A DNA stretch of 34,180 bases from Deltaproteobacteria bacterium (GTDB lineage: Bacteria; Desulfobacterota; GWC2-55-46; UBA9637), in the NCBI GenBank assembly GCA_016219285.1, contig JACRNJ010000077.1:1-34180 (forward strand). The letters are read 5' to 3'. Positions 4,736-19,875 of the stretch are shown one piece after another (the stretch's first letter is position 1; every line of letters begins with the position of its first letter). The notes below the pieces were generated by a model. It worked only from the letters and a program-made list of their open reading frames with translations. It was not told the DNA's origin and ran no database searches. The position numbers were made by a program, and so were the translations under genes.

Positions 4736-5515
4736 TTATCCCCTCCACTTCTTTGACTCAAGTATCCTTAATGTCAAAAACAGGAAAAGGCTTATAAATA
4801 TTAAATAATAAACAATATCTTCTGTGCCTATCACGCCTTTGGCAAAACCCTCCAGATGTGCTGTCAAAGATATATATGACAAGATATCTCCGAAAATCTG
4901 GCCTGCAAGCGAGGCGGAAAAACCAATCATCCAGAAAAGGAGCAGCAGGCCAAAGGCTACTGTGGCGGCTATTATTTGATTTTCTGTCAAAGAAGATGCA
5001 AATACTCCAAGGCTTACGAACGAGGCGCCCACAAGGAACAAACCTATATAGCCTGTTATTATCGGGCCTGTCTCAGGCTGGCCAAATGCTATCAGCAAGA
5101 TAGGGTAGATAGCGGTCAATGCAATCATTATCATAAACACAGCCATACAGGAAAAAAACTTGCCCAAAAGCACCTCCATATCAGTAATCGGATAGGTAAG
5201 AAGAAGCTCTATGGTGCCGGACTTCTTTTCCTCTGAAAATAGCCTCATGGTCAGAAGCGGCATCATGAGAAGGAGTATAACGCTGATATTTCCAAAGAGC
5301 GGCCTTACAACGCTCTCCGTTATATTGAGCAGGCCAACCTGTTTTGCCAGCATAGGATTTATTGTCGCTTGAAAACTTATGGTGGAAAATAATGCAAAGC
5401 TGCTGTAGAAAAAATACCCTGCAAGTATAAGGAACATTGTAATGACCACATACGCCACAGGGGATGCAAAGTATGATTTAAATTCTTTTTTGAAGATAAG
5501 ATAAAAATTGCGCAT
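4736..5515 (-). CDS. ABC-2 type permease (GldF-like)
   Basis: 259 aa from the ATG at 5515, with GGGAGG five bases upstream. Six hydrophobic segments. The N-terminal FKKEFKSYFASPVAY and the loop RLFSEEKKSGTIELLLTYPI are signatures of the ABC-2/GldF permease family. It lies between the ATPase (5665-6600) and the GldG-like gene. NosY is a permease of similar size, so a link to the NosZ-like cluster is conceivable, but the GldG partner argues for the general Gld-type module. Confidence 0.8.
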   Translation of the reverse strand: MRNFYLIFKKEFKSYFASPVAYVVITMFLILAGYFFYSSFALFSTISFQATINPMLAKQVGLLNITESVVRPLFGNISVILLLMMPLLTMRLFSEEKKSGTIELLLTYPITDMEVLLGKFFSCMAVFMIMIALTAIYPILLIAFGQPETGPIITGYIGLFLVGASFVSLGVFASSLTENQIIAATVAFGLLLLFWMIGFSASLAGQIFGDILSYISLTAHLEGFAKGVIGTEDIVYYLIFISLFLFLTLRILESKKWRG

Positions 5516-5531
5516 CAAAACCTCCCGGAAA

Positions 5532-5664: not shown

Positions 5665-6600
5665 CTATTCCTTGGTTACCAACTTCACAAATATATCTTC
5701 CAGGCTCATCTCGTGAGGCTTAAGCTCAAGGAGCGCCCACCCTTTATTTACAATACAAGGGGCTATCTCTTTTCTTATATCTCTCCCTTTTATTGACTCA
5801 ACTATATATTCGCCAATCCCGCTGGCAGAGGCGTCTTTCTTTATAACCTTTTCAACACCTTGAATCGCTTCAAGCTCTTTTATAACATATTGGGGCGGAC
5901 CATCAATCTTTACTGAAAAACGGTTTGCGCCATGAATAGTTGATGTCAGGTTTTGCGGAGTGTCTACTGCCACCACCCTGCCGTCATTTATAATAACAAC
6001 CCTCTGACAGGTCATGCTGACTTCAGGAAGTATGTGGGTTGAAAGGATTACCGTCCGCCGTCCTGCAAGGTTTTTTATCAGCTTTCTTATCTCTATAATC
6101 TGTTTAGGGTCAAGGCCGATGGTTGGTTCATCCAATATTAAAACCTCCGGGTCGTTGACCAATGCCTGGGCAAGCCCAACCCTCTGGCGATAGCCCTTTG
6201 AAAGCTCTCCAATAAATTTATACGAGACATCCGTGAGAACGCATTCATGCATTACCTTGTCAACAGTTGCCTTAATATTTTTACTACCGACCCCTTTGAT
6301 ACCGGCAGCAAATGCAAGATAGTCTTCAACGGTCATATCCTTGTAAAGCGGAACATTCTCCGGCAAATAACCTATCCTTTTCTTTACTTCGAGGGGCTCT
6401 TCAAACACATCAAAACCGGCTACTCTTGCCTTGCCGTTTGTGGGAGGAAAGAAGCAGGTAAGTATACGCATGGTTGTAGTTTTTCCAGCGCCATTCGGGC
6501 CGAGAAAGCCAAGGATCTCACCCTTATTTACCGAAAAGGTTATCCCTTTTAATGCATGATAATTGCCATAATATTTAGTAAGGCCTTCAACTTCTATCAT
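5665..6600 (-). CDS. ABC transporter ATPase (GldA-like)
   Basis: 311 aa from the ATG at 6600, behind GAGGTGG; a longer reading to 6651 lacks homology. Walker A GPNGAGKT (34-41), signature LSKGYRQR (133-140), Walker B VLILDE (153-158) followed by PTIGLDP, and the switch His in ILSTH. The C-terminal ~90 residues form the accessory domain typical of ABC-2 export ATPases (GldA, CcmA, NosF, drug exporters). It energises the permease at 4736-5515. The sequence alone does not separate GldA-like from NosF-like use. Confidence 0.85.
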   Translation of the reverse strand: MIEVEGLTKYYGNYHALKGITFSVNKGEILGFLGPNGAGKTTTMRILTCFFPPTNGKARVAGFDVFEEPLEVKKRIGYLPENVPLYKDMTVEDYLAFAAGIKGVGSKNIKATVDKVMHECVLTDVSYKFIGELSKGYRQRVGLAQALVNDPEVLILDEPTIGLDPKQIIEIRKLIKNLAGRRTVILSTHILPEVSMTCQRVVIINDGRVVAVDTPQNLTSTIHGANRFSVKIDGPPQYVIKELEAIQGVEKVIKKDASASGIGEYIVESIKGRDIRKEIAPCIVNKGWALLELKPHEMSLEDIFVKLVTKE

Positions 6601-6700
6601 TATTGCCACCTCTAAAAAGTTAAGGCTAGGGTTGAAGCTAAAAAACTCCATTCATCTTGTCTTCTCTTAACCTTAACCTCAACCTATCTTTCTGCCCTAT

Positions 6701-7204
6701 CTACTTCATCGGCTTCATTATAGTTAAATCTGAGCCTGCAGCGCTTTTACCCTTTAATGCAACCTCTATCCCACGCTCTTTTACAGGGGTATTCATAAGT
6801 TTAATCAGAGCGGCATCGTTATCCAATAACTTTGCCAAGTCTTGTTTTCGCCATGAGTCTTCCCAATTACCCACAAGTGCATTCCAGACCTGGGCAATTG
6901 CTACTGCCTCACCATCCTTTATCTCTCCAATACCACCATATTTGTCTCTATCTTTTGATATCAATGTCCGCATATTATGCACCACTACAACAAATGGCGG
7001 ACCGCATCTCATACAGTATTTTGCAGTTTTATCTATACTGTGGCACTGAACGCATTTTTTATGCGCCAGTTCCACTGCCTCATCAGCGCTATATTTTATA
7101 TAACCCTCTGCCTTAAGCAGTCTTACAGCATCCTTGCCTAAGATAACTACAGCAGCCAAAAATAAACCGGCAATAATAAGTATAACTATTATGGCTTTAT
7201 TCAT
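6701..7204 (-). CDS. Membrane-anchored monoheme cytochrome c
   Basis: 167 aa from the ATG at 7204. An uncleaved-looking N-terminal membrane helix (IIVILIIAGLFLAAVVILG) is followed by one heme site, CVQCHS, near residue 50, and a second CxxC (CMRCG) without His. There is no obvious ribosome site and the start lies only 17 bases past a strong terminator hairpin (7221-7253), so expression may depend on read-through. It is the last cytochrome of the 6.7-9.4 kb group. Its specific partner is unknown. Confidence 0.65.
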   Translation of the reverse strand: MNKAIIVILIIAGLFLAAVVILGKDAVRLLKAEGYIKYSADEAVELAHKKCVQCHSIDKTAKYCMRCGPPFVVVVHNMRTLISKDRDKYGGIGEIKDGEAVAIAQVWNALVGNWEDSWRKQDLAKLLDNDAALIKLMNTPVKERGIEVALKGKSAAGSDLTIMKPMK

Positions 7205-7220
7205 AAAAATGTAAAAAACA

Positions 7221-7253
7221 CAGGGCACGACTATTCTAACCAATCGTGCCCTG
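7221..7253 (-). terminator. Intrinsic terminator between cytochrome genes
   Basis: On the minus strand CAGGGCACGA, a 13-base loop, TCGTGCCCTG, then TGTTTTTTACATTTTT. The stem is a perfect 10 bp. It follows the 7276-8205 gene and stands directly before the start of the 6701-7204 cytochrome gene. Confidence 0.88.
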
Positions 7254-7275: not shown

Positions 7276-8205
7276 TTATTTCATTGCCTTGGCTTCGTCT
7301 GCTGCTACCTTTCTAAGACCACCTTCCACAAAACCAGTGCCCTTCAGGTCTCCACCACGGCCAGCTAAAGATGCCTCGAGAAGCTCCTGCACCTCTTTAA
7401 ACTCCGCATTATGAGCAGCATTCAAAGGTGTTACAGCATTTGCCGCTGATTTAGGGTCAAAAGAAGATTTTGGGTTCAGATAGTCTGCTACGCTTGTTAT
7501 TGGCTTTACATCCGCATTTGCCCTTATCCACGCTATGACATTCCATATATCCTGGTCAAGCAGCAGATTGCCCCACGCCGGCATGGCCGGTGACAAATCT
7601 ACCGCTTCACCGCCGCCTTTGATTACCGTAAAAAGCTCCACATTGGTCTTTTTGTTCATGTATTCTGCGCCAGAGGTAAGCTTCCTCGGATATGGGTCAA
7701 GATATACTGCATTCGGTCCGTCACCATGAAGAAGCCAGCCATGACAGCCTACGCAATACACATAATACCACTGCTTTCCTTCATTTGGATTTGCCCCCGG
7801 AACAAGGCTTGTCTTAAAGCTGGGAGACCAGTTATTCGTCCACTGGTTATAAATCTGTTCCCCTGATGTGGGTTTTTTTACCCTGTCCCACATCTCTGTT
7901 TTGCCTGTGCCTTTTGAATAACCGCTTTCAACCTTAAAGGTCTTTGTGTCCGCCTTGGTGGTCCTCTTGCCAACACCTGTGAGATAGTCGAACGGAGCTA
8001 TCCCGTATGTGCTGCCCCCTGCGCCCCTCAGCATATCCATTGCCTCTTTATCAAAATTAGCAAGGGCCTTTTCCAAAGACTCCTTAGTCTGGGTAGGACA
8101 CTCGACCTTTTCACCCGCTGCCTTACATCTCTTCTCTGCTGCAATTGCTGCCGGAACCACGGCAAACAATGCTACTACCAACAACACTAACCATTTTGCA
8201 TTCAT
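7276..8205 (-). CDS. Exported monoheme cytochrome c with long flanking regions
   Basis: 309 aa from the ATG at 8205, which has GGAGGAGG 8 bases upstream (a GTG at 8214 lies within the ribosome-site region). Sec signal peptide MNAKWLVLLVVALFAVVPAAIAA. One heme site, CVGCHG, sits near residue 150, with a likely axial Met in PAMPAWG about 60 residues later. The ~130 residues before the heme and ~80 after it carry no heme motif and I do not recognise them. It lies in an operon with two other cytochromes behind the 9.4-kb promoter. Confidence 0.75.
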   Translation of the reverse strand: MNAKWLVLLVVALFAVVPAAIAAEKRCKAAGEKVECPTQTKESLEKALANFDKEAMDMLRGAGGSTYGIAPFDYLTGVGKRTTKADTKTFKVESGYSKGTGKTEMWDRVKKPTSGEQIYNQWTNNWSPSFKTSLVPGANPNEGKQWYYVYCVGCHGWLLHGDGPNAVYLDPYPRKLTSGAEYMNKKTNVELFTVIKGGGEAVDLSPAMPAWGNLLLDQDIWNVIAWIRANADVKPITSVADYLNPKSSFDPKSAANAVTPLNAAHNAEFKEVQELLEASLAGRGGDLKGTGFVEGGLRKVAADEAKAMK

Positions 8206-8273
8206 TTTTTTCACCTCCTCCTTTAATTTTAAGTAATTTACTAATTAAACCAACTAAATAAAATTGCAAAGAG

Positions 8274-8666
8274 CTATTTGCCTTTGCACTTGCAAAGTTT
8301 TCTTAAATAAGCTGTCAAATCCTTTATTTCGGCTTCAGTAAGCGTCTTGCCAAATGGAGGCATAATAGAGGACTTGCTAACAGACGCACCGCCATCTGAT
8401 ATTGCATTTTGAACATCTATATCGCTTAACTTGGACATATCTACAGAGCTTGTATGATTCCTTGGCGTAACCGACATCTCCGGTAAATCAATACCAAATG
8501 CCTTTGGCTTTGCATTTACGCCTTCGCCCTTGCCATCCAAACCGTGACATTGGGCGCAATAAAACTTGTAGTTTTCTTCCGCAGTTGCAGCAAAGACAGC
8601 CCCTTTCCCGACAAAGGCTGCTGTGCCTATTAAAATTGTTATAACTAAAAATATCCTTTTTATCAT
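8274..8666 (-). CDS. Small periplasmic monoheme cytochrome c
   Basis: 130 aa from the ATG at 8666 (AAAGGGG upstream). Signal peptide ends near AVFAA. A class I cytochrome domain follows: YCAQCHG for heme attachment and IMPPFGKTLTEAEIKDLTAY with the axial Met. The C-terminus is rich in Cys and Lys (KLCKCKGK). Probably a soluble electron shuttle between the bc-type complex and a terminal acceptor. Confidence 0.8.
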   Translation of the reverse strand: MIKRIFLVITILIGTAAFVGKGAVFAATAEENYKFYCAQCHGLDGKGEGVNAKPKAFGIDLPEMSVTPRNHTSSVDMSKLSDIDVQNAISDGGASVSKSSIMPPFGKTLTEAEIKDLTAYLRKLCKCKGK

Positions 8667-8690
8667 TCTTTTACCCCTTTCCAATAAAGT

Positions 8691-9359
8691 TTATTTCTGG
8701 CCTGCTACAAACCCAGCTATAGTTTTCATTTCATTGTCGTTTATAATACCCACAAATATCGGCATCCTCTTTACAGGCTTGAAGACCTTAGGTTCTTTGA
8801 GATAGGCATACACCCAATCTCCTTTAAGTCTCTTTCCTGCCTCAGAAAGGTCAGGTCCGCTTGCGCCGCCAGCCTTTTGTGCCCCTGCCTTTATAGAATG
8901 ACATCCTACACAGCCGTACCTTTTTACGAAAAGATTTTTCCCTTGTGGAGTTGATGCCTCAGTTACTCCGCCTGCTGTTACTTCTTTGGCTGTAAGTGTC
9001 ATAAGATAATCCGCAACATCTTCAGCTTCTTTTTTAGAAAGGGCTGGATGTTTCTCACTATTTTTTTCAGTTATTGAGTTATACTTTAACAGTCTTATCG
9101 TAGCTGGCTTCTCTAACCAGCCCCGCAGCCACTCACTTTTAAATTTACTACCTGAGTACCAGAGTTCAGGTCCCTTTTTCTTAAGCTGGTCATCAAATGT
9201 TTTTTCAGCAGCAGGACCAGCTATTTGATGACAACTTCCACAATTCTTTGAAGCAAATATGCCTTTGCCATCAGCATAACTCAAATTCCACGAAAAACCG
9301 ACAACGAAAGCAGTCATAACAACTAATACCATCAAACGACCCACTTTACCTACACTCAT
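8691..9359 (-). CDS. Exported diheme cytochrome c
   Basis: 222 aa with a signal peptide (VLVVMTAFVVGFSWNLSYA) and two cytochrome c domains: CGSCHQ near residue 40 and CVGCHS near residue 151, each followed by helical segments ending in YLMTL or FVAG. An AGGAGGT ribosome site lies about 10 bases upstream of the ATG. It is the first gene after the promoter at 9401-9429, and the next two cytochrome genes follow with short gaps. Architecture resembles diheme cytochrome c4-like electron carriers. Confidence 0.8.
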   Translation of the reverse strand: MSVGKVGRLMVLVVMTAFVVGFSWNLSYADGKGIFASKNCGSCHQIAGPAAEKTFDDQLKKKGPELWYSGSKFKSEWLRGWLEKPATIRLLKYNSITEKNSEKHPALSKKEAEDVADYLMTLTAKEVTAGGVTEASTPQGKNLFVKRYGCVGCHSIKAGAQKAGGASGPDLSEAGKRLKGDWVYAYLKEPKVFKPVKRMPIFVGIINDNEMKTIAGFVAGQK

Positions 9360-9412: not shown

Positions 9413-9429
9413 CTATAATACTTTGTCAA
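9401..9429 (-). promoter_or_regulatory. Promoter for the cytochrome c operon (8274-9359 and onward)
   Basis: On the minus strand TTGACA (9429-9424), 17 bases, TATATC (9406-9401). The -35 box overlaps the stop region of the propeller gene ending at 9426, so the cytochromes can be expressed apart from the propeller genes. Confidence 0.6.
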
Positions 9430-10586
9430 GGGTTTTTTTGCTCAAATATCTTCCTCTGTTCAGCGTCCAGTTTCACGGACAATTTGGCAGGTTTATACCC
9501 GTCTGATATTGCATTTGTCATATTCAATTTACCAATATTATTTGCGCCTATTTCTGTAAACCAAACGCTATCGGCGGCATCTATAGCAATATCCATCGGC
9601 TGTCCACCAGTTACAGCAACATTTAACTCAACAAACTCGCCTTGCACAGGGTCCAACCTTCCCACCTTTCCGCCTCTCTTATCGCAATACCAGATATTCC
9701 CTTTTTTGTCAGTGGTTATTCCCTCCGGCACGCCCCTGCTGGGGATTTCAAATCTTTTAAACTTTTCCGTTGCAGGATTGAATCTTACAAGTCTTCTGTC
9801 TTTCCTTTCGCTGAACCAGACACCTCCAACCCTATCTACAGCAACTTCGTTGGGGGCGCTAAATGCGCTTTGTATGGCATACTCCTTGAACTTTCCAGTG
9901 GCAGGAGAGAATACGGCCAATTTATTTGCCTGTGTTTCTACGAACCACACCCGCATCTTTGCATCTACTGCAATCCCCATAGGCTGGCTCAATTGTGTTG
10001 GGATTGCATACTCCTTGATATCGCCTTTCTTCGTATCAAGCCTTGCTATCTTGTTTGCCGCAAATTCCGTAAACCAGATATTGCCTGAGCCGTCCGCTGC
10101 GAGCCTTACAGGCTGACTGTCTGGGGTTGGCACCTCATACTCTTTAAATGTTCGTGTTTTAGGATCAAATCTGCCTATCTGATTTCCATCCTGCTCTGTG
10201 AACCAGATAATACCGTCTGCATCCACTGTTATATCAGTGGGGTAGCTCTTTGCGGTAGGGATATCGTATTCAAAAAACGCAGAAGTTTCAGGCTGAAATA
10301 CAGCTATCTTATTTGCATTCAATTCTGCAAACCATATCCGTCCTTTTGCGTCAACACTTATGGCCGAGGGAAAACTTCGCTGTGACGGGATTGGATAGAG
10401 CCTCATTGCTGGCTCGGCGGCTATAGCCGGTATGGTAAAGAGTAAGCAGTAAGCAGCAAGCAGTAAAAAGATTTGAGATTTGAGATTTGAGATTTGAGAT
10501 TTTAAATCCAAAATCCGAAATCCGAAATCCGAAATTATTCCTGGCTTCTTACTTCTGGCTTCTGAACTCTTGCTCATTTTACTCAT
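9426..10586 (-). CDS. Exported streptogramin-lyase-like (Vgb-like) beta-propeller, second copy
   Basis: 386 aa. Residues about 60-350 contain seven WFTE/WFVE-type blades of the virginiamycin B lyase/NHL propeller type (IWFAELNANKIAVF, IWFTEQDGNQIGRF and so on). The protein contains no histidine at all, so it cannot use the catalytic His known in Vgb, and a binding or scaffold role is more likely than lyase activity. Its first ~50 residues come from heptamer arrays: a repeat-derived N-region, then the hydrophobic core FLLLAAYCLLFTIPAIAA. The ATG overlaps the stop of the upstream paralogue (ATGA, 10586-10583). Confidence 0.75.
   Translation of the reverse strand: MSKMSKSSEARSKKPGIISDFGFRILDLKSQISNLKSQIFLLLAAYCLLFTIPAIAAEPAMRLYPIPSQRSFPSAISVDAKGRIWFAELNANKIAVFQPETSAFFEYDIPTAKSYPTDITVDADGIIWFTEQDGNQIGRFDPKTRTFKEYEVPTPDSQPVRLAADGSGNIWFTEFAANKIARLDTKKGDIKEYAIPTQLSQPMGIAVDAKMRVWFVETQANKLAVFSPATGKFKEYAIQSAFSAPNEVAVDRVGGVWFSERKDRRLVRFNPATEKFKRFEIPSRGVPEGITTDKKGNIWYCDKRGGKVGRLDPVQGEFVELNVAVTGGQPMDIAIDAADSVWFTEIGANNIGKLNMTNAISDGYKPAKLSVKLDAEQRKIFEQKNP
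10441..10565. repeat. Heptamer arrays encoding the N-terminus of the second propeller
   Basis: Plus-strand units: GCAGTAA-type (10446-10466), GATTTGA x4 (about 10470-10500), CCGAAAT (about 10514-10535) and GGCTTCT/TACTTCT (about 10542-10562). They are open in the coding frame and supply the signal-peptide region of the 9426-10586 gene. Confidence 0.85.
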
Positions 10587-11767
10587 TCCTGTTTTCTCTC
10601 TTTTGTTCTAAGCGTATACCATATCATAAAACATGCAAACAAGATAACAATTATTGTTGCTATTATTTTGATTGTTTGCAGAGAGATGCTGTTACTTATC
10701 TCTGTGGTTACCATGGCTTTCCCATTATCGGTATGCGTAATAACAGATGGCTCTATTCTACCAATCTTATTTGCATCCCTGTCTGTCTCTGTAAACCATA
10801 CTACGCCTTTACTGTCTACTGCAATGCCAAGCGGAAGGCTCCTGTATGTGGGCACATCGTATTCAGTGAAAACCGATTGAATGGGGTCAAATACACCCAC
10901 CCTATTCCCTCTGTTTTCTGTAAACCATATCCGACTATCTTTATCTATAGCTATACCGGAAGGAACGCTCGCAAGATGCGGCATTATCGCTTCGTTGAAT
11001 TTCTTTAATTTTGGGTTAAACATGGCAAGCTTATTGCCATTCAATTCCACAAACCAGACATTTCCGTCTTTATCAATAGCCACATCAGATGGGTTTGAAA
11101 ATAGCATAGGTATACTGTATTCAACAATTACCCCTGTAGCAATTTTAAGGCTTCCAAGCTTATTGCCGCCGGACTCAATAAACCAGACCCGGCCACCCGC
11201 ATCAACAACTATTCCTGACGGCTGGCTGTTAAGGGTTGGGATACGGTATTCTTTTATTGTCCCATCCCTGGTATTTAATCCGCCAATCTTATTGCCATCT
11301 CTTTCTGTAAACCACACCATCACTGCATCACTGCTAACAATAATACCATATGGCGCCGCATCTGATGTTGGAATTGAATACCTTGTAAATTTCTTTTCTA
11401 ACGGAGAAAAACTTATAATGCTGTTGTCAATAGACATGGTCGCCCATATAATAGAGTTGGCATCTATGGCAATACCAACAGGGCTGCCTTTATAAGGGAT
11501 TTCTAATTCCTCAAATTTCTGAGCAGACTGGATAAATTTGCCTATTTTATTGCTGTTCTGTTCTGTAAACCAGATATTGTCAGATGCATCTATAGCAATA
11601 TCCACCGGATTGCTGGATGGGGTTGGGATTGCATATTCCTTTATCTGCCCGCCGGTAGCCCCCCCCTTTGTCAAAAGGGGAGCTATGGAGGGGGGCTCCG
11701 CAGAAAATACCGCAATCGGAAACAAGACAAGACAAATGAGGCTGAATAATTTAACGGCTTGTTTCAT
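10583..11767 (-). CDS. Streptogramin-lyase-like (Vgb-like) beta-propeller with C-terminal membrane anchor
   Basis: 394 aa. Signal peptide MKQAVKLFSLICLVLFPIAVFSA, then a Pro/Gly-rich stretch (PPSIAPLLTKGGATGG) encoded by a GC-rich palindrome at about 11658-11696, then propeller blades with WFTE-like motifs up to about residue 340. A C-terminal membrane helix (IKIIATIIVILFACFMIWYT) precedes a basic tail. Only one His falls in the propeller. It overlaps its paralogue by four bases. Tandem propellers between a cytochrome b/c complex and soluble cytochromes suggest a structural or docking role, which is inference. Confidence 0.75.
   Translation of the reverse strand: MKQAVKLFSLICLVLFPIAVFSAEPPSIAPLLTKGGATGGQIKEYAIPTPSSNPVDIAIDASDNIWFTEQNSNKIGKFIQSAQKFEELEIPYKGSPVGIAIDANSIIWATMSIDNSIISFSPLEKKFTRYSIPTSDAAPYGIIVSSDAVMVWFTERDGNKIGGLNTRDGTIKEYRIPTLNSQPSGIVVDAGGRVWFIESGGNKLGSLKIATGVIVEYSIPMLFSNPSDVAIDKDGNVWFVELNGNKLAMFNPKLKKFNEAIMPHLASVPSGIAIDKDSRIWFTENRGNRVGVFDPIQSVFTEYDVPTYRSLPLGIAVDSKGVVWFTETDRDANKIGRIEPSVITHTDNGKAMVTTEISNSISLQTIKIIATIIVILFACFMIWYTLRTKERKQE
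11658..11696. repeat. GC-rich palindrome inside the first propeller gene
   Basis: A run of C, a spacer with AAAAGGGGAGC, then GGAGGGGGGC pairs back on itself. It is translated in frame as PPSIAPLLTKGG just after the signal peptide. Related palindromes lie at 14564-14619 and inside folC (about 24804-24836 and 25061-25101). Confidence 0.7.
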
Positions 11768-12003: not shown

Positions 12004-12720
12004 TTACCATGTAAATGTCGGCTCATATATATGCCGCATCTGCCAGTTGGCATCTTTGTAAGTTTCCACGTCCTGGCCGATGACTGATTCTCCTTCTGTT
12101 CCTGTCTTGCTGGCGCGGTATTTCCCTACCTCTATCTGACGCGCCCTGTTATTTTTATAAAAATCTGCCACATCCATTGGGGGTAGATTTTGTCTTACCC
12201 CTGTACTATGATTATGACAAGAAATACAGCCGTGAAGCTTTGCCTGATAGCCACTTTTAACAACACCAAAGATTATAATCCCAAAGACAATCAGGGGGGG
12301 CAATAAATATCTCAGTCTTTTCCCAATGCTGTTTACCTTATTTTTATTTCTGAAAAGGAAAGGCACTAAGATGAGAAATAAAATGCCAAGTACTGGGATG
12401 AGAAAAGTACCTACAAACTGCCATGTAGCCAATGCACCTTTAAGATACCAGAAAGGCTGAAGCAGAAACAGGAAATACCACTCTGGACCTGGGATATACA
12501 TACCATCATCAGGCAGTGTTGTATTGCCAGCCAGGTCAGCAGGTGCAGGGAGTCGGTAGCTGTATGCCAGAATCACTATAAGTGCGATTGTCACTATCAC
12601 AGCTATACTGCCTTTGATTGCGTGCTGTGGCCAAAATTTATGAAATCCTTTAGTATAAATATCCGGGGGATAACGTGAATCAATCAACTGATTCTCATTG
12701 ACATCGTTGCCAAGCGACAT
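12004..12720 (-). CDS. Cytochrome b subunit IV (PetD-like) fused to a monoheme cytochrome c tail
   Basis: 238 aa. N-terminal ~155 residues match the C-terminal half of cytochrome b (subunit IV): three hydrophobic helices and the quinol-oxidation-site motif PEWY in GPEWYFLFLLQPF. A periplasmic tail then carries a heme site, GCISCHNH, near residue 166. Such petD-cytochrome c fusions occur in bc-type complexes of several anaerobic lineages. It forms a set with the small cytochrome c (12871-13323) and cytochrome b6 (13421-14056). A GGGAGGT ribosome site precedes the ATG. Confidence 0.85.
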   Translation of the reverse strand: MSLGNDVNENQLIDSRYPPDIYTKGFHKFWPQHAIKGSIAVIVTIALIVILAYSYRLPAPADLAGNTTLPDDGMYIPGPEWYFLFLLQPFWYLKGALATWQFVGTFLIPVLGILFLILVPFLFRNKNKVNSIGKRLRYLLPPLIVFGIIIFGVVKSGYQAKLHGCISCHNHSTGVRQNLPPMDVADFYKNNRARQIEVGKYRASKTGTEGESVIGQDVETYKDANWQMRHIYEPTFTW

Positions 12721-12870: not shown

Positions 12871-13323
12871 CTATTTGGACTCCCCTTTATATGTACATTC
12901 ACATATACCGCTTCTGATATACGCAATTACATTCTTTATCTCTTCATCGGTCAACGTTGCATCAAATGACACCATCGCCTCTGAAAATCCTGCTGAAACA
13001 CCACCCTTCTTTATTACCCCGAACAAAAATTCGTCAGTACGTTCAGAGAGAATATCTTTATTCGTTAGGTCGCGTGGTTTTACACCTTCGCCAAGTGTAT
13101 CTGCCAACGGCCCATCACCTTTACCCTTATCGCCATGACACTGGATACAATGGGCCTGAAAGTTCTCACGGCCAGATTCTATTCCACCCTTACCGCTCCA
13201 GGTGGCTGTCTCTCAGGGTTCGGTCTTTACCTTGAACTTTTTTTCAGCAGCAAACGTAGCATTGCAAACAAGAAGAAGAGAGGCGCAAAATAATATAAAA
13301 AGCAGCATCTTTATTCTGTACAT
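12871..13323 (-). pseudogene. Cytochrome c of the bc-type complex, interrupted by an in-frame TGA
   Basis: A single frame runs from the ATG at 13323 (GGAGGTC upstream) to the stop at 12871: signal peptide MYRIKMLLFILFCASLLL, mature start near AEKKF, heme site CIQCH and a cytochrome domain ending ICECTYKGESK. Codon 37 is TGA (13215-13213), between the signal peptide and the heme motif. Without reading through it the product has either no heme domain or no signal; a start after the TGA at a TTG (13107) would also lack CIQCH. Nothing else is damaged. A fresh nonsense mutation or a sequence error is most likely; selenocysteine seems unlikely at this site. Confidence 0.75.
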
Positions 13324-13420: not shown

Positions 13421-14056
13421 TTATAGAGGACCAGAGATACCATGCCGCTTTACCATCTTGAAGTGAAAGGTTAAAAGAATTGCAGCAAAGATGGGAAGAA
13501 TCAATATATGGACAACAAAGCTACGGCTCACAGAAAAATATTCTAGCATGGGCCATCGAAGGAACTCACCTATAACCGGCCATGTTGCTATATAATCTGT
13601 CCATATTACCAGAACCCAATAAGCTCTCCAATTCCATGGCAGGATTTCACCGGTCAGGCTAAAAAGGAAAACGATAAGAAACAGTGTCAAACCTGTAAAC
13701 CAGTTAAGTTCTCTTGGTTTTTGGTATGCCTTGTGATAAAAAACGCTGATTATGTGAGTAATTAAGGTTGCCACAAGAAGTGTAGCGCCCCAGCGATGTA
13801 TATTCCTCGCAAACCAGCCGAGAGGGATTTCATTGCTCATACGTAATACACTGTTGAAGGCATCTTCCGGGTTGGGTTTATAAAAAAAAGTCATGTATAC
13901 GCCTGTTATAAGCTGAAATATGATTATAGTTAAGGAGATACCGCCGAAACAGTAAAAAAAATTAAGATGGTTTGGGATTGGGAGGGACAATTTTTTCTTT
14001 ATATAGCTGCTGAATCCTGCACGTTCTTCAAACCAATCAGCAATTCTATTAATCAT
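13421..14056 (-). CDS. Cytochrome b6-type subunit (diheme, N-terminal half of cytochrome b)
   Basis: 211 aa with four membrane helices. Heme-binding His pairs: HRWGATLLVATLITH (13-residue spacing) and HILILPIFAAILLTFH (14-residue spacing, as in b6 rather than mitochondrial-type cytochrome b). The C-terminal HGISGP is typical. CAGGAGG precedes the ATG. The partner subunit IV lies two genes on. No Rieske iron-sulfur gene is in the window, although the PEWY motif in the partner implies a quinol-oxidation site that normally needs one. Confidence 0.88.
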   Translation of the reverse strand: MINRIADWFEERAGFSSYIKKKLSLPIPNHLNFFYCFGGISLTIIIFQLITGVYMTFFYKPNPEDAFNSVLRMSNEIPLGWFARNIHRWGATLLVATLITHIISVFYHKAYQKPRELNWFTGLTLFLIVFLFSLTGEILPWNWRAYWVLVIWTDYIATWPVIGEFLRWPMLEYFSVSRSFVVHILILPIFAAILLTFHFKMVKRHGISGPL

Positions 14057-14059
14057 AAT

Positions 14060-14515
14060 TTATCCTCCTGTCTTATCTGAACGCTCCTGCCTGGAATCTG
14101 GCTGTGTCTCGCCTGTGAAATCTATCTTCCAGCTATTTGTTTTTTCATCCATATCAAGGTTTATATCGGTTTCCTGAACAAAATCTCCGCCAAATGCCGA
14201 TGGCACCTTACATTCAATTTTAACAACAGCCCTGTCCTTTGTTATTTTGCTGCTTATGACAGTAATCTTCATATCCTTTGAATATTTTGATGCTATATCT
14301 TTAAATCTATCTTCGGGAAGCTTATATTGTTTTGTACTGCAGAGCTTGTATGCTTCTCCAAGGGTAGTAGGCCCGCCCTCATGAATATAGGCATAGAATT
14401 TTTTTACCACATCCTCAGGGCTTTCTGCAGGCTGGTTTGATATCTTGCTGCACCCTGATGATACGGCTACTATGGCAAATAACGTGTATATCGCTACTCT
14501 GACTATGGTTTTCAT
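14060..14515 (-). CDS. Lipoprotein, NTF2/DUF4878-like
   Basis: 151 aa. Lipoprotein signal with lipobox VSSGC at about residue 22. The remainder (SPEDVVKKFYAYIHEG, then strands RAVVKIECKV and SWKIDFTG) fits the DUF4878/NTF2-like fold of small bacterial lipoproteins. It lies three bases upstream of cytochrome b6 and downstream of the NosZ-like gene, so it may be a periplasmic helper for this respiratory set. No catalytic residues can be proposed. Confidence 0.6.
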   Translation of the reverse strand: MKTIVRVAIYTLFAIVAVSSGCSKISNQPAESPEDVVKKFYAYIHEGGPTTLGEAYKLCSTKQYKLPEDRFKDIASKYSKDMKITVISSKITKDRAVVKIECKVPSAFGGDFVQETDINLDMDEKTNSWKIDFTGETQPDSRQERSDKTGG

Positions 14516-14640: not shown

Positions 14641-16368
14641 TTACAGTTGATTCAGCGCAGGAACAACTGCCTTGTTTCCGCCCTCTATCTGGCCTGGCAA
14701 TACGCCTAACTGCTTCTGCTCCGCAGCCTCATCATAATCGCCTGTGGCAAGATTTGACTGTCCTTTCGGACCATCAACAAAGAATGCTGCCCTCATCTCA
14801 AGATGGAGCGGACCGCAGAATGTTTCGCAGTATATCTCATACTCACCCGCATAATCTGCTACAAATTCTGTCATAAGTGATACGCCTCTTGGAATATGCA
14901 GCATAGTCCTTGTCGCATATGGCCCGTATATGGTAAAGCCCATGATAACATCGGGGTTTTTTGTGATGCCTGATGCCTTATCAATATTGGTTACAATAAT
15001 CCTTACCTTATCGCCTTTGTTGACCCTCATCTGCCTCGGGACATAACCGTAGCTGAATGCCTTTACATGTATCTCTTTTACATCACCCTTCTGAACTATA
15101 CCTGGTTTCTGTGTATCCAGAGGAAGATAAGCAATCTTAGCGCCGCCTAAATGCACCGGCCTTATCTCAGGCGTTGACCCGCTTATAAGCCCCCCCTTCT
15201 CTCCTTGCCCCATTGTCCAGTCTTTTACAAGGTTTGCAAAAATGACCTTGGCATTATGCGGCTCGCCGTCAACTGGGATAATCTTGAGGCTCTTGCCGTA
15301 TGTCGGGCTGCCTACTTTTACATCCAGCAGCTCGTGGTTAACCGGCCACCTAATGCCTGTTGGGCTGAATAGGCCCGTTGAGAATTTGTTCAAAGCCAAC
15401 ACATAATTATCATCCGGGCTCACTGCAATGTGCCCTATTCTGTAATGGATTGGATATTCATCAACAACCTCAAGCTTATTCAAATCCGTCTTGATAACAG
15501 CGTCTGCAACAAAACAGCTTGTATAGGCATTGCCTTTGTTGTCAAACACATTGTGGAGCGGACCTGCGCCTGCCGGCACTACCTTCTTAACAGCCAGCTT
15601 GTCCACATCAATAAAGGTAAGGGTAGCGGAAAGCTTGTCTGCCACCTGGATATACCTGCCCTTGGGCTCGGCATCTGTTCCATGCGGGTTCTTTCCAACA
15701 GGAATCTCCTTTACAAGCTTAAAGGGATTCAGCTCAAACACGCCGACTGTGGAATGATAATAATTGCCTGAAAAAAGATACTGCTTCTTGTTAGGATTGC
15801 CTGCCTTCTTGTTAATATCAAGATAGTCAGGGGCGCTTGGCGCAGGACCCCAATCAATAACCTGGGTCTTGCCAGTGGCAATATCAATCTTTGCCATCTT
15901 GCCTGTAAGTTCACCCGATGCATATAGTGTCTTTCCATCCGGTCCCAGTGTTATATGGTGGATACCAAATGGGAAGGGCAGCGAAATAAGCCTCTCCAGA
16001 GAACCCAGCTGCAGGTTGATAACACCGATGGTATTGGCTGCCTTGTCATTTACATACAGATATTTGCCGTCCGGTATCAGGTTCTTGGTACCTTCATTAG
16101 TAGGTGCGCTGAATACCGGCTCATGCAGGTCAACACCAACCAGAATATGCCTGTATGTCCTCATACTTGGAACACCAAATACTGCAACTGAACCGTCTGT
16201 TCCGCCAGCATTATACATCAGCATCGGGTCTTGCAGAGGGGCATCATTCGGAGCTGCCTCAGTAACGTGCCAGTCTCTCTCTGCCGATACAGCAATTCCT
16301 GGCATGACAAACCATGCAAAAAAAGCAATTACTGCAAACACAAAACTCAATCTTCTTGCTACTTTCAT
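14641..16368 (-). CDS. Divergent nitrous-oxide-reductase-like protein (NosZ-like), altered copper ligands
   Basis: 575 aa from the ATG at 16368 (GGAGGTG 8 bases upstream); an in-frame ATG at 16434 with its own GGAGGTG would add 22 residues. Signal peptide ends near GIAVSA; ARRLSF is a poor Tat motif, so Sec export is likelier. Residues 45-390 align with the NosZ propeller (VFGVPSMR, GKYLYVNDKAANT, NPHG, GPLH, GNAYTS, EPH) and 430-535 with its cupredoxin domain. CuZ ligand positions read H82, E83 (normally His), H137, H229, H272, H313, H371. CuA reads M476 (normally His), C514, C518, H522, M525. The chain is shorter than usual NosZ (~640 aa). N2O reduction is plausible but unproven. Confidence 0.8.
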   Translation of the reverse strand: MKVARRLSFVFAVIAFFAWFVMPGIAVSAERDWHVTEAAPNDAPLQDPMLMYNAGGTDGSVAVFGVPSMRTYRHILVGVDLHEPVFSAPTNEGTKNLIPDGKYLYVNDKAANTIGVINLQLGSLERLISLPFPFGIHHITLGPDGKTLYASGELTGKMAKIDIATGKTQVIDWGPAPSAPDYLDINKKAGNPNKKQYLFSGNYYHSTVGVFELNPFKLVKEIPVGKNPHGTDAEPKGRYIQVADKLSATLTFIDVDKLAVKKVVPAGAGPLHNVFDNKGNAYTSCFVADAVIKTDLNKLEVVDEYPIHYRIGHIAVSPDDNYVLALNKFSTGLFSPTGIRWPVNHELLDVKVGSPTYGKSLKIIPVDGEPHNAKVIFANLVKDWTMGQGEKGGLISGSTPEIRPVHLGGAKIAYLPLDTQKPGIVQKGDVKEIHVKAFSYGYVPRQMRVNKGDKVRIIVTNIDKASGITKNPDVIMGFTIYGPYATRTMLHIPRGVSLMTEFVADYAGEYEIYCETFCGPLHLEMRAAFFVDGPKGQSNLATGDYDEAAEQKQLGVLPGQIEGGNKAVVPALNQL

Positions 16369-16545: not shown

Positions 16546-17289
16546 TCACTCAACAAAGAAACTGAGAAGAAATGCCTTATAATAAACCATAAAGCCGCTC
16601 ATGGCCATTATCCCCAAAATCATCAGAAAGAAGGCACAACAAAAAATGACAAGACCATGTCTCCGAATTCTTTGTGTCAGCCAGCCGACAGCTATTGCAA
16701 GGGGAAGGCCAATAGCAATAAATGCGGTACTCAAACCAATACCATATATTATAAGAAACAGAAATCCCCTTACTGCATTTTCAGGCACACTGGCATAATT
16801 TAAGAGTTGAGAAAGGGTAGGCGGAATACAGGGGGAATAGATAAATGCAAATGAAGCACCCACAAACGGCGCAAGAATCCAAAAGATAGAGCCGGGCAAT
16901 GTTTGTGCAATATTTCTTACAAAGGCTATAGCAATCATTAATAGAGCTATCAACAAGATAAAAATGCCTGATAACATCCTGAAACTTTTTATATGATAAA
17001 GCAGATATCCGGATATGCCAGTCCCTGATGCACCAAGTAGGGCAAAGATAATGCTGAACCCCACTAAATATCCAAAAGATGTGATCAAAAGATTTGTTGT
17101 GGGTTGTTTAAGAGAGCCGACCTCTTTAATCAAGCATACCGCAATGAGAAATACCATGAAAAATGGGCTTATCTGGGCTATGCAGAACTGCCAGCTAGAA
17201 AAAAAAGAGGAAAATGCGCCGAAAAATGCCTCGGAAAAACCAACATTTGAAATCAAATTTACTATTTCGTGATGATGTCCTGATTCCAT
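16546..17289 (-). CDS. CcdA/DsbD-type thiol-disulfide membrane carrier
   Basis: 247 aa with six membrane helices. The two conserved redox Cys of the CcdA fold are visible: C36 in QFCIAQISPF and C154 in SPCIPPTLSQLL. CcdA moves electrons from cytoplasmic thioredoxin across the membrane to periplasmic thioredoxin-like proteins used in cytochrome c maturation. Two such proteins are encoded directly upstream (17369-18552). A heptamer palindrome fills the gap before its ATG and no clear ribosome site is seen. An N-terminal His cluster (GHHHE) is present. Confidence 0.8.
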   Translation of the reverse strand: MESGHHHEIVNLISNVGFSEAFFGAFSSFFSSWQFCIAQISPFFMVFLIAVCLIKEVGSLKQPTTNLLITSFGYLVGFSIIFALLGASGTGISGYLLYHIKSFRMLSGIFILLIALLMIAIAFVRNIAQTLPGSIFWILAPFVGASFAFIYSPCIPPTLSQLLNYASVPENAVRGFLFLIIYGIGLSTAFIAIGLPLAIAVGWLTQRIRRHGLVIFCCAFFLMILGIMAMSGFMVYYKAFLLSFFVE

Positions 17290-17368: not shown

Positions 17369-17947
17369 TTATTTCGCTATCTCCTCAACCCATGCCGACA
17401 ACTTCTCTATCTCAACAAGCTTTCCGTAGAATGCCCTGGCTATCTTGCCATCCTTGTCTACAAAAAATGTTGTAGGCGGAGCATTGACGCCGTAGAGACT
17501 CGCTATTTTATCAGCCTTATCAAAACCGGCAGGGAAAGGGAACTGCTTCTTTTCAAGAAATTTTCTAAACTTTGATTCCGAATCCTGTATGCCTATCATC
17601 AGAAATTCCACACCCTTTGGATTATACTTGCCATATGCCTCTTTAAAAACAGGCGCGCTCTCATTAGAGCAGGGACACCACGATGCCATAAATGTTATTA
17701 CAAGCGGCTTTCCCTTAAAACTGTCAAGGGTTATAGAGCCTCCGCTTATGAGATTAAGAGTAAACATGGGAGCAGACATGCCAACCTTTGCTGTTGGCTG
17801 CTTATCCTGCGGACCGCTGCAACTTACAGTAAGAAGTAGGCAGTAGGCAGTAAGCACGAAAAGAGATTTTAGATTTAAGATTTTAGATTTTAGATTTAAA
17901 AAATCGTAAATCGTAAATCGTAAATCGTAAATCGTAATTGTCTTCAT
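17369..17947 (-). CDS. TlpA/ResA-like thioredoxin with unusual CPC active site
   Basis: 192 aa. Residues about 55-190 form a TlpA-type thioredoxin domain (MASW, VEFLMIGIQDSE, NAPPTTFFVDKDGKI with the cis-Pro region). The active site reads W-C91-P-C93-S instead of WCxxC, so the resolving Cys is one position early: a CxC site. The first ~40 residues (TIYDLRFTIYDF and LTAYCLLLTVSC) derive from heptamer arrays, including the hydrophobic core; C43 may be a lipid attachment site, with a weak lipobox. The ATG overlaps the upstream stop (ATGA). Probable role: periplasmic disulfide reduction for cytochrome c or copper-site assembly. Confidence 0.8.
   Translation of the reverse strand: MKTITIYDLRFTIYDFLNLKSKILNLKSLFVLTAYCLLLTVSCSGPQDKQPTAKVGMSAPMFTLNLISGGSITLDSFKGKPLVITFMASWCPCSNESAPVFKEAYGKYNPKGVEFLMIGIQDSESKFRKFLEKKQFPFPAGFDKADKIASLYGVNAPPTTFFVDKDGKIARAFYGKLVEIEKLSAWVEEIAK
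17826..17944. repeat. Heptamer arrays at the start of the CPC thioredoxin gene
   Basis: AAATCGT x5 perfect copies at 17901-17935, preceded by AGATTTTAGATTT-type units and GCAGTAG/GCAGTAA units (about 17838-17855). All are translated in frame on the minus strand. Confidence 0.9.
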
Positions 17948-18552
17948 TTTAGCGCCTTCTCTATCTCCTTTATCAAATCAGCTTCTGCAATCTCACCCAT
18001 ATGGATATAAGAAAACCGCCCATCCTTCCCAATGATAAAAGTCTTTGGTATACCGTATATCTTATAAAGCTCAGAAATATTACCTTCGCTGTCAAGTCCA
18101 ACAGGAAATGCAATACCAAATTCCTTCACGTAGTCCAAAACCTTTGCCTCGGTGTCCTGAATTGCAATGGCTATGAATACAGCCCCCTTGTCCTTATATC
18201 TTGTATAAACCCTCTGAAAGGCTGGCGACTCTAACCTGCAAGGATGGCACCATGATGCAAAGAAGTTGATAATAACAGGTTTCCCCTTCATATCATTTAA
18301 ACTGAACCTTTTACCATCCAATAATTTTAAGGAGAATGAAACTGCAACATCATCTTCCCTGGGCAGTATCTTTCTTATGCCGCCTTCCTCCTCCTTTTGT
18401 ACACAGCCGGGCAAAACAGTAAGCAGTAAGCAGCAGGCCGTAAGCAGTATTAAAAATACAGACTTCAGATTCAAGACCCAAGACTCAAAACTTAAGTCTG
18501 TAGTCTGTAGTCTGGTGTCTGGTGTCTGGTGTCTTGATTTCCTATTTTTCAT
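17944..18552 (-). CDS. TlpA/ResA-like lipoprotein thioredoxin
   Basis: 202 aa. A canonical active site W-C102-HP-C105 lies in a TlpA fold (GKPVIINFFASW, AIAIQDTEAKV, YGIPKTFIIGKDGR). The lipobox LPGC places the lipidated Cys at 50, an unusually long leader: residues 1-45 are encoded by heptamer arrays (HQTPDTRLQTTD, LLTACCLLLTVL). It overlaps the upstream CX3CH cytochrome gene by 11 bases and the next tlpA-like gene by four. GGAG lies five bases before the ATG. Likely keeps apocytochrome thiols reduced, with CcdA as electron donor. Confidence 0.85.
   Translation of the reverse strand: MKNRKSRHQTPDTRLQTTDLSFESWVLNLKSVFLILLTACCLLLTVLPGCVQKEEEGGIRKILPREDDVAVSFSLKLLDGKRFSLNDMKGKPVIINFFASWCHPCRLESPAFQRVYTRYKDKGAVFIAIAIQDTEAKVLDYVKEFGIAFPVGLDSEGNISELYKIYGIPKTFIIGKDGRFSYIHMGEIAEADLIKEIEKALK
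18414..18545. repeat. Heptamer arrays at the start of the WCHPC thioredoxin gene
   Basis: AGTCTGT / TGTCTGG units run from about 18495 to 18534, with GCAGTAA-type units at about 18417-18450. They are translated as QTPDTRLQTTD and LTACCLLLTV. Confidence 0.85.
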
Positions 18553-19384
18553 GAAACTCCGGTACCGGCAGTTCCCATCTGAAAAATCTCTCTTTCTGGC
18601 CTGGCAAATCTTTTAAAACAAGATTCATAAAACCTTTATCATTTTTAACCTTTCCCCGATTAAAGTCCTCTGTGACAAACTTAAATCTCAACACGCCTTC
18701 CATGTGGTGATAATCTCCGCTTGTATAAGATACCTTCCAGTCCGCCGGCTCATAAATCCCGCCATCCTTATCCTTTAATACAGCCAGTTTTTCCATAGCC
18801 GCCTTTGGCAGTCTCTCCTGATGCGTATTCAGATAAACAAGAAATACGGTGTAATCCTGCACATTATGCTTTTCCGCATCGGAAGCCCCGCCTGTAAGAT
18901 TGAAATACTCAATCGGCGTATAAATCACATCAATATAAAGGTCGCTTTCACCAAAATCACTCCTCCAGAGATACTGTTTTAAAAACCTGTTTGCCTCATT
19001 GGATAAAATTGTAGGAACATTGCTTAAATGTTTTTTTTGAAGATACCTGGTAATTGCAATACTCTCGTTATCTGTCAGCCGCGCACCATTAACAAGCCTC
19101 ATCCTGTTCACTACGTTTTCCCATTCTCGCGGCGTATGTTTTGTCCTTTCTACAACATCCTTGCTGTGGCACTTCCTTGTGCATGAATTGCTATAGAGAA
19201 ATTTCATCTCAGTTTCATCAAGTTCCGGCAATCCGGCAAACCTAAAGGCCGTAATCCTGGCCGCTACATTCAGATATTCAAATCTGCTCATTGGCCTTGT
19301 ATCCACCAAGAGAAAAAAGGCCACAATAGCCATCATAAGGAGTAGGGAGGTAAACATAAAAACTGCAACAAGTAACTGCCTCAC
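18542..19384 (-). CDS. Membrane-anchored cytochrome with CX3CH heme motif and unrecognised C-terminal domain
   Basis: 280 aa starting at GTG, overlapping the ccmH-like stop (GTGA). One N-terminal membrane helix (residues 4-27). A heme-type site C68-TRK-C72-H73 (CX3CH rather than CX2CH) is followed by HTPREWENVVNRM, as in cytochromes that sense or carry electrons. Residues about 120-275 (SDLYIDVIYTPIEYF, DYTVFLVYLNTHQERL, YHHMEGVLRFKF) form a domain I do not recognise. CX3CH hemes are rare and may need their own lyase. The position among ccmH, tlpA and ccdA suggests a role in maturation or in feeding the NosZ-like protein. Confidence 0.65.
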   Translation of the reverse strand: MRQLLVAVFMFTSLLLMMAIVAFFLLVDTRPMSRFEYLNVAARITAFRFAGLPELDETEMKFLYSNSCTRKCHSKDVVERTKHTPREWENVVNRMRLVNGARLTDNESIAITRYLQKKHLSNVPTILSNEANRFLKQYLWRSDFGESDLYIDVIYTPIEYFNLTGGASDAEKHNVQDYTVFLVYLNTHQERLPKAAMEKLAVLKDKDGGIYEPADWKVSYTSGDYHHMEGVLRFKFVTEDFNRGKVKNDKGFMNLVLKDLPGQKERFFRWELPVPEFHEK

Positions 19385-19875
19385 CTTGCCGCCTTGTCAG
19401 GAGCGGACATTGATAATAATCGCCGGCTTACGAGATATATGCCGATGAACAAACCAACAACCCAGACACTAATAACACCCCAGAAGATTGCCCAATCTAT
19501 AGTATCAAATGCCCTTGTATATTTAAAAAACTTGCCCTTTATCCTTTGCACAGGTGTTATTCTTGCATCATCGCCGTATTTATCTAAAAAATATTTTATA
19601 ATCTCTTGCTTTGTCTTCCCATCTTTTATCATCTGGCCTATCTGGTCTTTCCAGTCAAGACCGCAGCTCATATTGCAGTCCTCCAACACAAGAGGACATT
19701 CGCACGGGCAGGCCAGATCTTCCGCAACCTCCTGAACTGTCAGGGCATAGGCTGGCGCCGATAAAAATAGTAAGCAGCAGGCAGTAAGCACTAAAAGAAA
19801 TTTTAGATTTACGATTTTAGATTTACGATTTAAATTCGTAATGCGTAAATCGTAAATCGTAATTGTCTTCTTCAT
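19381..19875 (-). CDS. CcmH-like cytochrome c maturation protein with extra cysteines
   Basis: 164 aa. After an array-encoded leader (residues 1-44, TIYDLRITN and LTACCLLFLSAPAYA) comes a CcmH/NrfF helical domain: VQEVAEDLACPCECPLVLEDC, DQIGQMIKDGKTKQEIIKYF, DKYGDDARITP. A C-terminal membrane helix (IFWGVISVWVVGLFIGIYLV) follows. Classical CcmH has a single LRCxxC pair; here C56, C58, C60, C67 and C71 are present, so the thiol chemistry may differ. The ATG overlaps the upstream stop (ATGA). It should act in reducing apocytochrome disulfides. Confidence 0.8.
   Translation of the reverse strand: MKKTITIYDLRITNLNRKSKIVNLKFLLVLTACCLLFLSAPAYALTVQEVAEDLACPCECPLVLEDCNMSCGLDWKDQIGQMIKDGKTKQEIIKYFLDKYGDDARITPVQRIKGKFFKYTRAFDTIDWAIFWGVISVWVVGLFIGIYLVSRRLLSMSAPDKAAR
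19769..19864. repeat. Heptamer arrays at the start of the ccmH-like gene
   Basis: GCAGTAA-type units (19770-19790), then a palindrome of TTTACGATTTTAGATTT against AAATTCGTAATGCGTAAATC. They are translated as the leader of the CcmH-like protein. Confidence 0.85.

Follow-up and report, generated by a model that had tools for sequence, protein, structure and literature searches.

A clade III lactonase-type NosZ with altered CuZ and CuA ligand positions, encoded in a conserved cytochrome operon of a "Deltaproteobacteria" genome

The gene at positions 14641-16368 of the window (the whole 34,180-nucleotide stretch of DNA that was analysed) encodes a member of a known clade, the clade III or lactonase-type nitrous oxide reductases (L-NosZ), and the ligand pattern of its copper sites is its interesting part. 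The unusual copper residues are common to the intact relatives and hence are not private to this protein; on the alignments, they mark the clade III branch and not a lone enzyme. By family, the protein is likely to be an N2O reductase. The explanation preferred here, an exported clade III enzyme with its own electron route and a His138/Met476 arrangement of the copper sites, is judged quite probable as a whole.

The gene is located on the minus strand, where an open reading frame running from an ATG at 16368 to 14641 encodes a product of 575 aa. A ribosome-binding site, GGAGGTG, lies close to the 5′ side of this ATG. A reading of the same interval on the plus strand was rejected, being closed by stops. 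The product carries a Sec-type signal peptide at about residues 1-28, judged by eye to be non-Tat, followed by a seven-bladed propeller and a C-terminal cupredoxin (CuA) domain. Over the propeller, Pfam matches to Lactonase (PF10282, 8.6e-14), to YNCE and to one nos_propeller repeat were obtained. The cupredoxin match (PF13473) is weak (3e-4, below its cut-off); the CuA domain nevertheless aligns. The Lactonase and YNCE matches are shared with 6-phosphogluconolactonases and YncE-type propellers over the propeller part only, and to our knowledge these proteins have neither a cupredoxin domain nor the CuZ histidines.

Comparison of L-NosZ with Pseudomonas stutzeri NosZ chains gave an E-value of 2.5e-33. 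A ColabFold model of moderate quality (mean pLDDT 70.6, pTM 0.65) was searched against the PDB. Only NosZ structures stood among the top matches listed, with E-values near 1e-29 and TM near 0.6 over more than 580 columns, the fold match spanning the full length. The first-pass annotation, made from the letters alone, had described a protein that aligns with nitrous oxide reductase from end to end and is shorter than the clade I and clade II enzymes. The profile matches (NF052460, TIGR04246 and TIGR04244) and the fold matches agree with the first statement, and the length of 575 aa against 630-641 aa for four canonical enzymes agrees with the second.

The copper sites were analysed by aligning L-NosZ with these four canonical enzymes (Ruegeria clade I, one haloarchaeon and two clade II), the canonical ligand roles being drawn from PMC11573801, PDB mutant titles and general knowledge. 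The protein shares with canonical NosZ (TIGR04244, TIGR04246) the fold, the domain order, six of the seven CuZ His positions, the CxxxCxxxHxxM motif and a lysine near CuZ, K328. It differs, however, in having DxHE instead of DxHH, IHH instead of IHG, THG, NHV or NHA, and Met instead of a CuA His, and most of the segment from "NY" in blade IV to the blade V His is absent. The gene and its copper-site features are as follows.

14641-16368, minus strand: L-nosZ, clade III lactonase-type nitrous oxide reductase (translation, NF052460, NosZ fold match)
16120-16125, minus strand: His82-Glu83, blade II "DLHE" against canonical DxHH (H129, H130), Glu83 standing for the second His (alignment)
15955-15960, minus strand: His137-His138, blade III "IHH"; His137 corresponds to canonical H178 and His138 is extra (alignment)
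14941-14943, minus strand: Met476, where P. stutzeri has H583, its N-terminal gating His of CuA (alignment)
14794-14829, minus strand: CuA loop CETFCGPLHLEM with C514, C518, H522 and M525 (translation, alignment)

In the propeller, H82, E83, H137, H229, H272, H313 and H371 align with H129, H130, H178, H326, H382, H433 and H494 of P. stutzeri. In the cupredoxin domain, M476, C514, C518, H522 and M525 align with H583, C618, C622, H626 and M629. Positions 83 and 476 are both occupied by His in all four canonical enzymes, whereas the window protein has Glu and Met, respectively. The alignment thus bears out what had earlier been read by eye, namely the exchange of the second His of DxHH for Glu83 and of the N-terminal CuA His for Met476, with retention of the other CuZ histidines and of the CxxxCxxxHxxM part of CuA.

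Of the 26 intact tree rows (window included), 19 have Glu at position 83 and the other 7 have Asn, a ratio that is not a frequency estimate, since VGVDLHEP, one of the two patterns used in the motif scan of genome contigs, favours Glu83. The seven Asn83 sequences are a Nitrospinota-type group forming one clade. His138 is present in every intact relative; at this position, two of the four canonical enzymes carry Gly and the others Val and Ala. Residues H82, H137, H138, H229, H272, H313, H371, M476, C514, C518, H522 and M525 are invariant in 23 rows. At the three sites, the canonical pattern is His, then Gly, Val or Ala, then His, and that of the clade III family is Glu or Asn, then His, then Met. 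In the window protein, H138 is at −7 when counted back from the blade turn. The value is the same for two residues at canonical ligand positions, H272 (turn at G279) and H313 (turn at D320), and is −8 for H137 and H229; the Nitrospinota-type rows have one extra residue in this region.

Because His138 is gained while the second blade II His is lost, L-NosZ would still have seven hub histidines, six at canonical positions and His138 at a new one. Replacement of the CuZ histidines of P. stutzeri by Ala abolished metalation in six of the seven cases, and the seventh gave an inactive three-copper centre (PMC11573801); an uncompensated loss at position 83 would therefore be expected to kill the site, and compensation is expected. 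The simplest reading, proposed from the sequences, is that His138 takes over the role of the lost H130, so that a ligand would have moved from blade II to blade III. Further candidates for copper or pocket roles are the invariant blade IV residue H205 and the linker residue H406. That the enzyme is an N2O reductase with Glu83 as a direct CuZ ligand, and no replacement by His138, seems unlikely: Glu83 is exactly at the ligand position and is kept in most members, but a whole Nitrospinota-type group that keeps all else has Asn there, and His138 never varies.

Met476 shows no variation in any intact relative. In P. stutzeri, H583 flips in and out of CuA1 and is proposed to act as an electron-transfer gate, bonding S550 when flipped out (PMC11573801). 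The position of S550 is Ala (A437) in the window protein and in most relatives. The "TNID" Asp is retained (D463), and H522 is the sole conserved His of the cupredoxin domain across relatives. CuA with other ligands exists in PmoD, where Cys, Met and His are used (PMC6189053). Judging from the residues, either Met476 would bind CuA1 or CuA1 would be three-coordinate, and we propose that Met may stand in for the gating His as a ligand. That clade III reduces N2O with H130 relocated to His138 and with Met in place of the gating CuA His, so that neither DxHH nor a His gate would be required, is a plausible but still tentative proposal.

The usual nos accessory genes had been described as missing near L-nosZ. 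This holds for nosL, which was sought in the genome and is absent, but the gene is surrounded by a conserved operon that encodes an ABC exporter and cytochromes of the b and c types, so the apparent absence reflects a different accessory set. The neighbouring genes are as follows.

3100-4689, minus strand: GldG-like auxiliary exporter protein (PF09822 8e-30, synteny)
4736-5518, minus strand: ABC-2 permease, GldF-like, with a putative NosY-type role (NCBIfam, synteny)
5665-6651, minus strand: ABC exporter ATPase, GldA-like, with a putative NosF-type role (TIGR03522 330 bits, below the cut-off of 402.6; synteny)
6701-7243, minus strand: small haem c protein, also part of this cluster (CVQCH motif, synteny)
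7276-8214, minus strand: cytochrome c, 312 aa, candidate electron donor (PF13442 1.1e-9, synteny)
8274-8684, minus strand: monohaem cytochrome c (PF13442 2.4e-10)
8691-9359, minus strand: dihaem cytochrome c (PF00034 1.1e-16, synteny)
9426-10586, minus strand: Vgb-like beta-propeller, second of a pair (PF24684 4.5e-79, synteny)
10583-11767, minus strand: Vgb-like (virginiamycin B lyase family) beta-propeller, first of the pair (PF24684 4.4e-68, synteny)
12004-12720, minus strand: cytochrome b subunit IV-like protein, carrying a haem c motif, CISCH, at its C-terminus (sequence and synteny; no match in Pfam or NCBIfam)
12871-13323, minus strand: monohaem cytochrome c whose codon 37 is an in-frame TGA, 13213-13215 (intact counterpart at L010:10312-10812)
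13421-14056, minus strand: cytochrome b6-like membrane subunit (PF00033 1.4e-39, synteny)
14060-14515, minus strand: lipoprotein of about 150 aa, no family match (conserved directly downstream of L-nosZ in relatives)
16546-17289, minus strand: multi-spanning membrane protein, DsbD/CcdA-like by eye only (conserved in L009 and L010; no family match)
17369-18552, minus strand: two ResA-like periplasmic thiol-disulfide proteins, 17369-17947 and 17944-18552 (family matches)
19381-19875, minus strand: CcmH-like cytochrome c maturation protein (PF03918 3.3e-11)

Genes for the lipoprotein, cytochrome b6, the haem c-bearing subunit IV and the two Vgb-like propellers occur in the same order beside L-nosZ in MAGs that belong to several phyla and come from groundwater and marine settings. 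A GldA/F/G-like exporter is found beside L-nosZ at L010 (ATPase and permease only), L012, L013, L015 and L017. Homologues of the 7276-8214 cytochrome c are located directly downstream of L-nosZ at L016, L018, L019 and L022 and directly upstream at L011. In the TGA-bearing cytochrome, the rest of the frame is conserved, and the stop is either a sequencing error or the mark of a young pseudogene.

Several features of the neighbourhoods deserve mention in their own right. In the sister MAG (L009:12582-14051), a NosD-like beta-helix is fused to cytochrome c; the window and L010 have the cytochrome alone in this slot. The Vgb-like (streptogramin lyase family) pair, at 9426-11767 in the window, often accompanies L-nosZ in different phyla; in such surroundings it seems unlikely to act on antibiotics, and it may take part in metal-site assembly. 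Directly upstream of Asn83-type L-nosZ, a 138-aa protein matching NF052405 ("NOV5WD8W family nitrogen cycling protein") is encoded at L024:326-742 and L026:9464-9880, and ORFs of similar size occupy this slot at L023, L027, L028 and L030. In a Gallionellales MAG (L019:13031-18438), L-nosZ is followed by genes for a cytochrome c, universal-stress/PCP_red, NirJ/AhbD-like radical SAM and protoporphyrinogen-oxidase-like proteins, a gene content that suggests a possible link to haem modification. At L018 and L022, this place is taken by large ORFs without assignment.

Accessory and denitrification genes were sought family by family in the genome of the window. The genome has narG, as well as nirS and its relatives, and a stand-alone NosD-family protein is encoded on a contig with a NarK-like fragment. 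The family searches for a second or canonical nosZ found none in the genome, and no NO reductase was identified by family; a COX1 match considered for this role was rejected as a contig-end fragment beside a CyoE-like gene. The presence of narG and nirS and the lack of a canonical nosZ fit a final N2O step carried out by L-NosZ.

L-NosZ, the only NosZ of the genome, would thus be expected to convert N2O to N2 in the periplasm, probably completing nitrate or nitrite reduction. The most likely source of electrons is the quinol pool, from which they would reach soluble c-type cytochromes by way of the cytochrome b6/subunit IV-c complex. From these cytochromes, among which the one encoded at 7276-8214 is the best candidate donor, the electrons would go to CuA; as in canonical NosZ, CuA would pass them on to CuZ of the partner subunit. 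The CuZ hub probably consists of seven His, with Glu83 in place of the second His of blade II and His138 beside His137 as the putative substitute, and CuA would be built of two Cys, one His and one Met, Met476 presumably replacing the flipping gating His. Points against this explanation are the profile score 10 bits short of the cut-off, the lack of nosL, the failure of the family searches to recover an NO-reduction step in the genome, the stop in the operon cytochrome at 12871-13323 and the mean pLDDT of 70.6.

It is improbable that the product is a copper protein descended from NosZ but without N2O reductase activity, serving another substrate, electron transfer or copper binding. Two canonical ligands are replaced, the branch to canonical NosZ is long and nosL is absent, but all the remaining ligands are invariant across several phyla, and the only truly degenerate relative, L020, drops most of them, which argues that ligand conservation is selected. 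In addition, N2O reduction is on record for cultured clade III organisms (PMC13274427), and the denitrification genes narG and nirS co-occur with L-nosZ. The related enzyme with another substrate that the first-pass annotation had offered as an alternative gained no positive evidence.

The taxonomic position of L-NosZ within the NosZ family follows from profile searches and phylogeny. The NF052460 profile ("clade III lactonase-type nitrous-oxide reductase") matches it over positions 1-479 of 480 (E = 1.9e-207), with a score of 689.6 bits against the NCBI curated cut-off of 700, a shortfall of 10 bits or 1.5 percent; the genome-wide search likewise scores the gene at 690. The profiles of clade II (TIGR04246, 201.2 bits, E = 2.3e-59) and clade I (TIGR04244, 147.3 bits, E = 6e-43) both remain well below their cut-offs of 625. 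DLHE instead of DxHH, Met476 instead of the CuA His and the signal, non-Tat by eye, set the protein apart from clade I, and the first two of these set it apart from clade II. With clade III it shares the full-length profile match, the lactonase-type propeller joined to a cupredoxin domain, the non-Tat signal and the ligand pattern of over-cut-off members, although its sub-branch has CETFC in the CuA loop and not the commoner CxHFC of clade III.

In the maximum-likelihood tree, all relatives form one fully supported branch, separated from canonical NosZ by a long branch, and the window protein is sister to L009 and adjoins the over-cut-off P0004. The over-cut-off rows are P0002, P0003, P0004, L005, L014, L016 and L019. 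Relatives with the same residues reach 701-779 bits in the phylum of the window, and those from gammaproteobacterial and Gallionellales MAGs score 770-803 bits; tested members of the Asn83 clade score 589-610 bits. Since it branches among over-cut-off relatives that carry the same residues, L-NosZ of the window lies within clade III despite its sub-threshold score. A new lineage outside clade III, to which only the score below the cut-off points, is rejected as highly improbable, since same-residue relatives pass at 701-803 bits and the tree contradicts it. The separate N2O reductase lineage suggested earlier is thus recovered as one branch, but it is not new, corresponding to the already described clade III. 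A NosZ-like clade with a lactonase propeller was reported in 2024 in Nitrospirota, Nitrospinota and Sporomusa acidovorans, and was found to be transcribed in groundwater, a functional test being called for (PMC11033732). For clade III, PMC13122619 and PMC13274427 cite He et al. 2025 (Nature 646:152, doi 10.1038/s41586-025-09401-4), to which, according to these citing papers, the assignment of N2O reduction is due. Desulfitobacterium nosdiversum (enrichment) and Sporomusa acidovorans are listed as clade III N2O reducers (PMC13274427).

The presence of L-NosZ is patchy, as G090, a species of the same genus as the window, is devoid of it. No Bacillota members were found in 299 genomes of an Alicyclobacillus-centred phylum, and the search of viral contigs for L-NosZ relatives found none. 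The matches listed in the plasmid search have about 26 percent identity, and most are annotated as canonical NosZ. A second L-NosZ copy (G399:C227:2371-3735, 722 bits), a 492-aa open frame matching from profile position 46, is present in the gammaproteobacterial genome of L016. In a Nitrospinota MAG (L020:1198-4617, JACRGN010000237.1), a 1139-aa ORF combines an L-NosZ domain with about 600 aa without known family. Its ligand losses are H74N, HH137-138 to NN, H371N and M476P, and the CuA Cys are gone; an L-NosZ of more typical make-up is encoded separately in this genome (G404:C369). From its sequence, the L020 protein looks like a dead N2O reductase recycled as a domain. A CHAT protease reading of the fusion, suggested by eye, found no Pfam or PADLOC support.

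N2O is a greenhouse gas, which nitrous oxide reductases convert to N2. The window adds a clade III member from a MAG group labelled "Deltaproteobacteria" at NCBI, and the conserved clade III operon is shown across several phyla. If the residue pattern holds in validated clade III enzymes, the clade would provide a natural test of the ligands required at CuZ and CuA for N2O reduction, and surveys that demand the DxHH or CuA His motif would miss the clade III branch.
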